The notes under the pieces were generated by a model. That model saw nothing but the letters and a program-made list of their open reading frames with translations, had not been told where the DNA came from and searched no databases. Positions 28,432 through 60,513 of a stretch of 64,000 nt of DNA are shown piece after piece. The DNA is from Halospina denitrificans (GTDB lineage: Bacteria; Pseudomonadota; Gammaproteobacteria; Pseudomonadales; Oleiphilaceae), in NCBI RefSeq assembly GCF_004364635.1, contig NZ_SOAX01000002.1, positions 620,001 through 684,000 of the forward strand, written 5' to 3'. Within the stretch, counting starts at the first letter, position 1. The number at the start of each line of letters is the position of its first letter. Both the position numbers and the translations under genes were made by a program.

Positions 28432-28540
28432 GGGGAGGGCGGGGTAGCCTGATCGGGAGACGCCGTGAATACATCCATGTAGGCTTGCTTTCGCCATCCA
28501 TGGCTCAAGACACTCCCGATCAGGCTACCCCGCCCTCCCC
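28432..28540. repeat. Long-arm hairpin element, copy 1 (inverted orientation)
   Basis: Bases 28432-28459 and 28513-28540 are perfect 28-bp inverted repeats (GGGGAGGGCGGGGTAGCC... and its complement). They enclose 53 bases. The reverse complement of those 53 bases aligns without gaps to the loop of the element at 41932, sharing GAGCCATGGATGGCG, AGCCTACA and GGCG near the end. The arm sequence is unrelated to the arms of the other copies. It lies between betB and betA. A small extra hairpin (CCCCTGA/TCAGGGG) overlaps its right end. Confidence 0.9.
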
Positions 28541-35277: not shown

Positions 35278-35392
35278 ATCGGAGCAATTTCGCTGCTCAC
35301 CCAGGCGGGGCATCGAAGCATCACGCCGGCAGCATCTTCCGGACCAGAAACAACAAAGCCCGCACAAGGCGGGCTGAGTCTTCTTAATTTGG

Positions 35393-35440
35393 TGGTGCCC
35401 GAAGGCGGAATCGAACCACCGACACGAGGATTTTCAATCC
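35393..35440 (-). repeat. tRNA-Phe 3'-end duplication A (attachment-site scar)
   Basis: These 48 bases match the 3' end of the intact tRNA-Phe at 38187-38262, from CCA through the T arm to the anticodon stem, with one difference, and then diverge. The tRNA's downstream hairpin (AGCCCGC/GCGGGCT) is duplicated with it at 35356-35375, but without the U-run. This is the usual scar of tyrosine-recombinase integration at a tRNA 3' end. Confidence 0.85.
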
Positions 35441-37022: not shown

Positions 37023-37268
37023 CGATCTCAATAGTTGTGACGTCTATATAGCACCAGCTATCCGAGAAAACTGCGTTGGAGAACAGCCTAGCGCATAAAG
37101 GGAGTTTATGCCGCGTAATCGTTTGGCCTGTCGCTTGTGCCCATTCGATTAGACTGGACGGAGAGGTAAACGCTGCTTCGTTGTGATCGGAAGTCTAAGC
37201 GGCGTGGACGAAATGTGGACGGCCAGAAACAAAGCCCGCGCAAGGCGGGCTGAGTCTTCTTAATTTGG
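37023..37268. other. Non-coding stretch left of tRNA duplication B
   Basis: About 250 bases without a supportable gene. The right part (AAGCGGCGTGGACGAAATGT, then GGACGG) recalls sequence that often follows integrase genes next to tRNA attachment sites, but no reading frame is kept. The duplicated tRNA hairpin AGCCCGC/GCGGGCT lies at 37233-37251. Confidence 0.4.
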
Positions 37269-37316
37269 TGGTGCCCGGAGGCGGAATCGAATCACCGACA
37301 CGTGGGTTTTCAATCC
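37269..37316 (-). repeat. tRNA-Phe 3'-end duplication B (attachment-site scar)
   Basis: These 48 bases match the intact tRNA-Phe 3' half with three differences, from CCA to the anticodon stem. The sequence beyond the match (CAAACCATAATTCTGCG...AAGACCGCA) resembles the sequence in the same place at copy A (TAAACCATAGTGCTGCA...AAGACCGCA). Copies A and B therefore look like the same end of two related integrated elements in tandem. Confidence 0.85.
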
Positions 37317-38145: not shown

Positions 38146-38175
38146 AAAAAAGCCCGCACAAGGCGGGCTTTTTTG
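38146..38175. terminator. Intrinsic terminator of tRNA-Phe and brnTA
   Basis: AGCCCGC/GCGGGCT with loop ACAAG is flanked by A-run and T6, so it can act on both strands: for brnTA from the left and for tRNA-Phe from the right. Degenerate copies without the U-run accompany the two tRNA duplications. Confidence 0.9.
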
Positions 38176-38186
38176 TTGATATCTAG

Positions 38187-38262
38187 TGGTGCCCGGAGGC
38201 GGAATCGAACCACCGACACGAGGATTTTCAATCCACTGCTCTACCGACTGAGCTATCCGGGC
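38187..38262 (-). tRNA. tRNA-Phe (GAA)
   Basis: The 76-base cloverleaf on the minus strand starts GCCCGGATAGCTCAGTCGGT and ends with encoded CCA. The acceptor stem GCCCGG pairs with CCGGGC, the anticodon loop is TTGAAAA with GAA, and the T loop is TTCGATT. It closely follows the E. coli tRNA-Phe sequence. Two partial copies of its 3' half to the left mark it as an integration site. Confidence 0.97.
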
Positions 38263-41931: not shown

Positions 41932-42044
41932 AGGATGCAATGAGGTACCGCTTCCCGGGAAGCTCCGGAGCCATGGATGGCGGAGGGCAGCCTACAGGGA
42001 CGTACTCGTGGCGGTTCCCGGGAAGCGGTACCTCATTGCATCCT
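41932..42044. repeat. Long-arm hairpin element, copy 2
   Basis: Bases 41932-41961 and 42015-42044 are perfect 30-bp inverted repeats (AGGATGCAATGAGGTACCGC... and its complement). They enclose 53 bases that start GCTCCGGAGCCATGGATGGC and end ACGTACTCGTGGCGG. The loop has the same length as copy 1 and is highly similar to its reverse complement, and to copy 3 in the same direction. The arms are unrelated to the other copies. It sits between the exonuclease/GIY-YIG gene and the aminotransferase gene. Confidence 0.92.
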
Positions 42045-44998: not shown

Positions 44999-45016
44999 AA
45001 CTTCCGGCAGCAACAC

Positions 45017-45044
45017 AAAAACCCGGCCAAGGCCGGGTTTTTTT
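45017..45044 (+). terminator. Intrinsic terminator of peroxiredoxin copy 2
   Basis: AACCCGGCC/GGCCGGGTT with an AA loop is followed by a run of seven T. It also has A's on the left side. Confidence 0.93.
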
Positions 45045-45075
45045 ATTGGTCGAAACCTAATTAGCAGACTGGAGA

Positions 45076-45260
45076 GGGGAGGTTGGTAGTGCTCTCCGGG
45101 AAGCTCCGGAGCCATGGATGGCGGAGGGCAGCCTACAGGGGTTTGCGCGGATGAGCGCAAACGGGTCTACAGGAGGTAGAGCCTGGACCTTTCAGCGGAG
45201 CAGGACAGCGTAGCTGAAAGGTACTCGTGGCGATTCCCGGAGAGCACTACCAACCTCCCC
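45076..45260. repeat. Long-arm hairpin element, copy 3 (with extra module)
   Basis: Bases 45076-45102 and 45234-45260 are perfect 27-bp inverted repeats (GGGGAGGTTGGTAGTGCTCT... and its complement). The 131-base interior begins exactly like the loop of copy 2 (GCTCCGGAGCCATGGATGGC) and ends GTACTCGTGGCGA. Between CCTACAGGG and GTACTCG it holds about 78 extra bases with two further perfect stems: GTTTGCGC/GCGCAAAC (45141-45162) and ACCTTTCAGC/GCTGAAAGGT (45187-45222). A weak TCTAC/GTAGA lies between these. It lies between the peroxiredoxin terminator and cysI. Confidence 0.92.
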
Positions 45261-59453: not shown

Positions 59454-59467
59454 CGAAAGGAAGCGGA

Positions 59468-59947
59468 TCAGCTGTAGGTTGCCAGCTTCTCGTCACTTTC
59501 CATTACATTGCGGATATTGGTCATGACTTCGTCAGCAGTCACATCTTCTTCGGAAAAGATGGTGTTGAAGTTTTCATGCATGGTCTGCTTGAAATGGCCA
59601 CGATCCCTGGGCTGGATACCCATGGAAACCGTCAGCGCAGTGAGCGCCTCACCGTCACCCACGGCCATATCCTGCGCAACCTCTTCCAGAACACCCTGCT
59701 GAGCCAGCATGTTCTTACCCTGATACGCAAGCGGTACACTGGTATCGCAACCGTTGGTGCCGGATGTAATGCCAAAGGTCTTGTTGTAGGACGTGCCATT
59801 AACAATGGTGGCAACCAAGTGCACCGGCAAACCACTCTTCCCCTCAAAAACCATGTTGCCCCAGCCACAGCCGGGACCGCCGGGGGCGTTGGCCTGAGCC
59901 CCGAAGGAACTACCTATCAGAGCAACAGCTAACAGCATTTTTCTCAT
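59468..59947 (-). CDS. DUF3015 family exported protein, copy 1
   Basis: The 159-residue protein has a signal peptide (GSSFGAQA) and the DUF3015 pattern: NAPGGPGCGWGNMVFEGKSGLPVHLVATIVNGTS..KTFGITSGTNGCD. The cysteines in GPGCGWG and TNGCD are likely disulfide-forming. Function unknown. It is a tandem duplicate of copy 2 at 60034-60513, about 80% identical by eye. AGGAGATC-like ribosome binding site (TTGGAGATCATC) precedes the ATG. Confidence 0.9.
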   Translation of the reverse strand: MRKMLLAVALIGSSFGAQANAPGGPGCGWGNMVFEGKSGLPVHLVATIVNGTSYNKTFGITSGTNGCDTSVPLAYQGKNMLAQQGVLEEVAQDMAVGDGEALTALTVSMGIQPRDRGHFKQTMHENFNTIFSEEDVTADEVMTNIRNVMESDEKLATYS

Positions 59948-60033
59948 GATGATCTCCAATTAATTTGTTGTCTCTCGTGTCCTTGATTCATCGCCTTGGA
60001 GCCATGAAACCGGACGGTCCCGAAAAAAGCCGA

Positions 60034-60513
60034 TCAGCTGTAGGTTGCCAGCGTCTCGTCACTCTTCATTACGCTGCGGATATTGCTCATGACTTCGTCA
60101 GCGGTTACATCTTCTTGAGAGAAGATGCTGCTGAAGTTCTCGTGCATGGTCTGCTTGAAGCGGCCACGGTCTTCCGGCGCAATGCCCATGGAAACCGAAA
60201 GCGCTGTCAGCGCCTCACCATCACCAACGGCCATATCCTGGGCAACCTCTTCCATGACGCCCTGCTGAGCCAGCATGTTCTCGCCATGGTAAGCAAGAGC
60301 ACCACTGGTGTCACAGCCGTTGGTTCCGGATGTCATGCCAAATGTCTTGTTGCCGGATGTGCCATTAACAATAGTGGCAACCAGGTGCACCGGCATTCCG
60401 CTTTGACCCTCAAAAACCATGTTGCCCCAACCACAACCGGGACCGCCGGGCGCATTGGCCTGAGCCCCGAAAGAAGTGCCGACCAGAGCGAGAGCTAATA
60501 GTGTTTTTTTCAT
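60034..60513 (-). CDS. DUF3015 family exported protein, copy 2
   Basis: The 159-residue protein is the upstream member of the tandem pair, with signal peptide (GTSFGAQA) and the same GPGCGWG and TNGCD cysteines and the same length. The 86 bases between the two stop/start points are also partly similar, so the duplication includes leader sequence. Differences are scattered and keep the frame, which suggests both copies are maintained. It is probably transcribed with copy 1. Confidence 0.9.
   Translation of the reverse strand: MKKTLLALALVGTSFGAQANAPGGPGCGWGNMVFEGQSGMPVHLVATIVNGTSGNKTFGMTSGTNGCDTSGALAYHGENMLAQQGVMEEVAQDMAVGDGEALTALSVSMGIAPEDRGRFKQTMHENFSSIFSQEDVTADEVMSNIRSVMKSDETLATYS

Follow-up and report, generated by a model that had tools for sequence, protein, structure and literature searches.

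The analysed window, a stretch of 64,000 nucleotides of the Halospina denitrificans genome, contains three copies of a palindromic element with a branched core. Copy 1 (28432-28540, minus strand, with its core on that strand) and copy 2 (41932-42044, plus strand) are short forms, and copy 3 (45076-45260, plus strand, 185 nt) is a long form. The outer stem of copy 3 is locus-specific, its left arm (45076-45102) being the perfect complement over 27 bp of its right arm (45234-45260). Within this stem lies core hairpin 1 (45103-45129), defined from letters and structure, with the loop ATGGAT at 45114-45119. It is followed by core hairpin 2, whose 5' side, CCTACAGGG (45132-45140), is recognised by comparison with copy 2 and is interrupted by an additional module; its 3' side and the next core segment, GTACTCGTGGCG, were located by their letters at 45221-45232. 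The module is thus placed inside the second core hairpin, which corrects the earlier description. Copy 2 has AC where copy 3 has the 80 nt (45141-45220) between the end of CCTACAGGG and the start of GTACTCGTGGCG, a net gain of 78 nt, in agreement with the approximately 78 extra bases first reported.

Both stems named in the original prediction are perfect, as it stated. GTTTGCGC/GCGCAAAC (45141-45148/45155-45162) forms module hairpin A, GTTTGCGC-GGATGA-GCGCAAAC (45141-45162), and ACCTTTCAGC/GCTGAAAGGT (45187-45196/45213-45222) forms module hairpin C (45187-45222), with an inner GC-AGGACA-GC. The segment GGGTCTACAGGAGGTAGAGCC (45163-45183) had been taken for an unpaired joiner of the two; this view was not borne out, as it can fold into a third hairpin, B, with the loop AGGAG and one G-G mismatch in the stem. 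In several homologues hairpin B is GGGTTTAC-ACGGAT-GTAAACCC, with no mismatch. The fold of copy 3 has an energy of -118.6 kcal/mol, compared with -70.4 (sd 4.1) in 200 shuffles (z -11.6). The original prediction also favoured a folded RNA or DNA over a simple terminator, and in none of the three window copies is the stem followed by the T-run of an intrinsic terminator (GC-rich stem, then T-run): the letters after the stems are GGGATG, GCACGA and GGCACC, and the right tails are C/A-rich and T-poor. The upstream gene is followed by a distinct terminator-like hairpin at 45011-45048.

Other repeats are also present in the window. Three copies of a sequence composed of a tRNA 3' part and a hairpin are located at 35352-35440, 37228-37316 and 38146-38234 (the latter two 94% and 85% identical to the first). 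Among these only 38190-38262 is named as tRNA by Rfam, and they may be attachment sites, present in several copies, for elements integrated next to a tRNA gene. A 300-nt repeat occurs at 59461-59760 and 60027-60326, 566 bases apart and with 83% identity.

Distribution and structure of the element family

The core word CATGGATGGCG occurs 81 times in the genome of the window (G000), against 2 occurrences of its reversed control, and TACANGGANGTA occurs 90 times against 2, part of these latter places having been checked as elements. The 74 places read display a common plan, in which about 50 nt of inner core are enclosed by a stem; this stem measures 26-48 bp at 70 of the places, and its commonest length is 29 bp. 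The covariance model R1 is based on the 69 copies that remained after three with short stems and then L024:2953 (incomplete, and a repeat of L017) and L069:843 had been dropped from the 74. Loop 1 is invariant in this alignment by construction, because CATGGATGGC(G) served to find its rows. R1 gives, at E 1e-12 or better, 106 matches in the 3.3-Mb own genome (150 of 2396 candidates scored), at 83 different places among the matches listed, and at E 0.001 it gives 93 (100 candidates scored). In the congeners, E 1e-12 yields 43 matches in G001, 38 in G003 and 31 in G004 (150 candidates scored per genome), and 4 in G002, which is 68% complete; in the corresponding counts at E 0.001, which are 60 (G001), 60 (G003) and 50 (G004), some palindromes were probably matched on both strands. 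Within the order, 18 of 38 genomes, own included, match at E 0.001 and 20 show no match at this threshold, with 100 candidates scored in each. Among the matches listed in a wider contig scan, 76 of 80 records are Marinobacter.

Conservation within the element is greatest in the core loops and linkers, and sequence variation is greatest in the outer stem. Pairing in the outer 30 pairs reaches 99.5% across the 69 copies, and 28 of the 30 are changed on both sides somewhere in the alignment. The whole structure contains 653 both-side-changed cells, a number reached in none of 500 shuffles and by no slid version of the structure (at most 116); for further pair types, the value observed is reached in 34 of the 500 shuffles. 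Columns 3-28 comprise 1771 Watson-Crick cells, 7 G-U and 10 other non-pairs, and a tRNA control for the G-U rate, which gave 0 G-U in 70 acceptor pairs of 10 tRNAs, was uninformative. In 152 elements chosen on their A-N-GGA-N loops, arm positions 9-19 (1672 cells) have 18 mismatches, including 7 G-T versus 3 A-C, a difference too small to favour RNA-level over DNA-level selection or the reverse; this count leaves out positions 20-23, where some stems end, and positions 5-8, where one subtype has G-A, A-G and G-G. To the right of the outer stem many copies carry a weakly conserved tail of about 18 nt, GCA(C/A), which is C/A-rich and T-poor, and 45 of the 75 own-genome copies have GCA(C/A) at offsets 24-43, compared with 16 further out.

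A search of the own genome with copy 3 found its module at five other places (L002-L006), and the module also occurs in congeners. Among 36 pattern hits, 18 non-module ones were removed by eye, and 18 distinct long modules from four genomes were aligned over 103 columns. Inner stems that vary in sequence while remaining complementary, the test that the original prediction asked for, were indeed found: both-side changes affect 9 of the 29 pairs, and 98.5% of cells are paired, compared with 26-44% in slid structures, and none of 500 shuffles reaches either the both-side-change count or the covariation score. The number of further pair types, 12 compared with 14.4 in shuffles, is the only one of five measures not above its control. 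The both-side-changed pairs are distributed amongst hairpin A (one), hairpin B (three), hairpin C (three) and the enclosing core hairpin 2 (two), whose alignment columns 2-4 pair with columns 90-92. GGA is present in the loop of hairpin B in all 18 modules and inside hairpin C in 17, and the loop of hairpin A shows no conservation. A unique insertion lacking conserved structure is excluded, because 18 homologous modules show paired both-side changes and, in nearly all cases, keep GGA in hairpins B and C. This pairing, along with orthologous sites that carry short and long forms, supports the proposed modular folded RNA or DNA with optional arms.

Orthologous sites: the core is exchangeable within a locus-specific stem

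R1 was run piecewise over about 1.2 Mb of G001 and 0.8 Mb of G004, and 74 matches were reduced to 42 elements by removal of opposite-strand and overlapping repeats. Fourteen orthologous element pairs between the two genomes were matched by their flanks. Core identity is 96-100% in nine pairs and 38-77% in five, and for the pairs with divergent cores the best paralogous core is 91-93% identical in G001 and 81-100% in G004. The outer arms, compared over 18 nt, are both 89-100% identical in nine pairs and 61-78% identical in the remaining five, the latter being about the level of unrelated copies. Two of the five pairs with divergent cores keep their outer arms (100/100 and 100/89). L199:11360 and L260:4155 have conserved outer arms and different core subtypes, and L222:8998, with a long core, shares its outer stem and conserved arms with L242:12169, which has a short core in the other congener. 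These two pairs show that the core is exchangeable within a locus-specific stem, and in all five of the 14 pairs the core differs grossly, short/long switches included; we infer from the sequences that the exchange event is conversion between copies.

Of the 392 arm pairs compared between orthologs, 31 are changed on both sides and still Watson-Crick, and 4 are changed on both sides with a non-pair; a further 21 carry a one-sided change, with G-U involved in 7. According to an earlier proposal, perfect hairpins are created and maintained by template switching during replication (PMC8794818, in extract), a process that would explain stems that change on both arms together. The stems are numerous, nearly perfect and divergent in sequence, and this natural series could serve to test whether template switching maintains long palindromes. 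Turnover of the elements appears slow, because, as judged by eye, G001 carries an element at the corresponding place for 13 of the 27 own-genome elements whose two flanks were located in the searched part of that genome.

GGA loops, placement and competing explanations

In the 69 copies the A and GGA of hairpin 2 are invariant and the two N positions vary, the loop often being AGGGAC. A-N-GGA-N is present in both stretches tested in 36 of the 42 G001/G004 elements (scored partly by eye), which were found by the model and not by the loop; the exceptions are five elements with AGGAN as loop 1 and one whose loop 2 no longer contains GGA. GGA itself is kept in both stretches in 41 of the 42, five of which are long forms, where the module can supply the second loop match. 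In further families of the order, compared by eye, the stems are replaced and A-N-GGA-N is mostly kept, with departures in L121, L110 and the incomplete L111. The CsrA SELEX consensus is RUACARGGAUGU, with loops mostly of six nt closed by AC/GU, the loop bound by RsmE is ANGGAN, and very stable hairpins may disfavour CsrA binding (PMC7652899, in extract). Several GGA loops of the element fit RUACARGGAUGU/ANGGAN, a sequence feature of CsrA/Rsm-sequestering RNAs. A csrA gene is found in 37 of the 38 genomes, with one match in the own genome.

Gene calls for placement were made with a simple hexamer caller, which left 13 of 73 elements unclassed in the own genome and 1 of 42 in G001/G004. Many copies lie within about 40 nt of a called gene end. 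Among the 101 classed copies, of which several own-genome rows overlap a called gene, 62 have the upstream gene in the sense direction (p 0.03); in co-oriented gaps alone the ratio is 36 to 23 in favour of sense (p 0.12). GGA is kept in both stretches equally when the element is antisense (18 of 18 versus 22 of 23). Such nearly orientation-free placement counts against a simple mRNA role. Divergent gaps, which would hold promoters, are avoided both in G001/G004 (6 of 41, against 145 of 392 background gaps, p 0.003) and in the own genome (10 of 60 against the same background, p 0.002). A conserved promoter belonging to the element was rejected, since the left flanks of the elements contain no conserved promoter-like sequence. 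In the own genome the CATGGATGGCG list includes six close pairs in minus-then-plus order, C1:33025/33480, C2:160784/161587, C4:148322/148908, C4:216658/216834, C6:115806/116044 and C8:163967/164120, and the R1 matches at E 0.001 include one in plus-then-minus order, C2:73656/73792.

Other sequences were observed close to some elements. A second repeat, tgtaggagcgagcttgctcgcgat with its inverse, is found in the left flank of L242:15263 in G004 and beside L222:16877/17139 in G001, and resembles the REP sequences of Pseudomonas. In G018, a 5_ureB_sRNA match of Rfam (L107:1037-1323, 119.9 bits, cut-off 40) lies about 180 bases from an element.

We give roughly even chances to the reading, drawn from the sequences, that these elements are CsrA-type hairpin cassettes of the TwoAYGGAY type. 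The outer locus-specific stem, most often of 29 bp, carries a two-hairpin core with A-N-GGA-N loops, to which the long form adds, within hairpin 2, the three-hairpin module with GGA in two of its three hairpins. Cores would be homogenised by conversion between copies, and stems would be kept paired by template switching during DNA replication. The GGA strand, when transcribed, would offer two or more CsrA/Rsm binding hairpins per copy, and the genome-wide set may act as a dispersed CsrA sink or load CsrA onto transcript 3' ends, the long form holding more CsrA. Confidence in this reading is limited to that level because orientation is nearly free, the loops are intact in antisense copies and the left flanks carry nothing conserved that is promoter-like. 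The patchy distribution also counts against it, as all 20 genomes without an R1 match at E 0.001 have csrA, and so does the possibility that CsrA binds very stable hairpins poorly.

The same patchiness, together with the many copies, would fit a mobile or selfish DNA hairpin of the REP/BIME kind, the core of which would be the signal of a transposition or recombination enzyme and the GGA loops of which would act as single-stranded DNA. This explanation, which we regard as possible though doubtful, also agrees with the use of either orientation, the avoidance of divergent gaps, the six minus-plus close pairs, the retention of loops whatever the orientation and the scarcity of G-U pairs (7 of 1778 paired cells). 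It is at odds with the slow turnover (13 of 27 sites shared with G001) and with loops that closely match a known RNA-binding consensus, and with the search for the enzyme of a REP/RAYT system, PF01797 (Y1_Tnp/RAYT) having no match in G000, G001, G002 or G003, and two matches over cut-off in G004. A RAYT mobiliser was therefore rejected, G000, G001 and G003 all being element-rich. The proximity to gene ends and the fold z of -11.6 and -7.0 would suit a 3'-end structural element, with a very stable stem that protects or insulates transcripts and with incidental core loops; this is improbable, as a plain stem needs neither conserved loops nor a long module, and it is the loops and linkers that are most conserved and the outer stem that is most variable.

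Sites without the element bear on the origin of the stems. The element is absent from the copy-3 site in G003 and G004, which keep sequence matching the outer left arm, and the outer right arm in G001 holds the exact reverse complement of that sequence over 12 nt. The G000 and G001 elements here are about equidistant from the shared flank (a 2-nt gap being allowed), and for this reason the element is probably ancestral. Among the sites listed, both arm ends are kept at the empty sites of G001 relative to copy 1 and of G004 relative to L187:978 and L222:16877, and neither arm is kept at those for L242:15263 and L222:19171. Empty sites with both arm ends would fit loss better than duplication at insertion. 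Formation of the outer stems by inverted duplication of the target at insertion, at first sight compelling at the copy-3 locus through the left-arm match and the 12-nt reverse complement, is highly improbable given the probable ancestry of that element, the both-arm remnants at other empty sites and the two sites with neither arm.

Returning to the CsrA-type cassettes, a more extensive proposal, which we consider unlikely as a whole, is a genome-wide non-coding cassette system in which a CsrA-binding core would move or be copied between long locus-specific hairpins; roughly a hundred loci would together provide about two hundred CsrA sites, a number tuned by short/long switching.

Comparison with known systems

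TwoAYGGAY (RF01731) was listed in 2010 for human gut, gamma-Proteobacteria and Clostridiales (PMC2864571, in extract). In 2014 its function was called unknown, CsrA binding was proposed, and its external stem was described as not well conserved (PMC4333381, in extract). The literature searched yielded no test of the proposed TwoAYGGAY-CsrA binding and no dispersed or Marinobacter form of the element. The proposal of 2014 is directly testable because natural short/long and core-swap pairs exist at the same locus, and culturable Marinobacter relatives with dozens of copies are available along with these pairs.

At Rfam gathering thresholds none of the window copies is named, and RF01731 reaches its cut-off of 43 bits neither at any of 20 own-genome loci nor at any of 18 other loci, of which 17 are Marinobacter records. 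With a lax threshold it matches L085 (35.8 bits), L063 (34.2) and L098 (32.6) on the core strand, its alignment to L085 placing both hairpins, and its best score in a scan of the whole own genome is 34.8 (54 of 237 candidates scored). On these three loci several miRNA models equal or exceed the score of RF01731; these scores and that of a Ysr224 model, all below their own cut-offs, are taken to reflect long stems. RF01731 exceeds its cut-off in three of the 38 genomes, G027, G029 and G024 (47.6, 43.5 and 43.3 bits), and R1 matches the same three places with 40.9, 75.6 and 85.9 bits. Because R1 finds these places, the window family is, as judged from sequence models, continuous with TwoAYGGAY and is treated as a variant of RF01731. 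It has the structure of two AYGGAY-loop hairpins on an external stem, with ATGGAT in loop 1 and A-N-GGA-N in hairpin 2, where AYGGAY occurs in only part of the copies.

The family is similar to REP/BIME/REPIN elements, as described in the extracts consulted, in being high-copy, extragenic, palindromic and sometimes paired in opposite orientation. It differs from them in its longer stem, its sequence-variable arms, its branched core and the lack of a RAYT-type match in three carrying genomes. CsrB and PrrB_RsmZ models, for which at most 29 and 65 candidates were scored in each genome, give no hit over cut-off in the 38 genomes; CsrB scores highest in G031, at 55.3 (cut-off 71). With CsrB/CsrC and RsmX/Y/Z the elements share several GGA hairpin loops per molecule that fit the CsrA consensus, and unlike these they are scattered copies with few GGA loops each rather than one sRNA gene. 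Compared with TwoAYGGAY, the own-genome copies tested score below the cut-off. The window family may further be distinguished by its hundred or so dispersed copies, a hairpin 2 that is frequently AGGGAC, a three-hairpin module, locus-specific perfect stems and core exchange.
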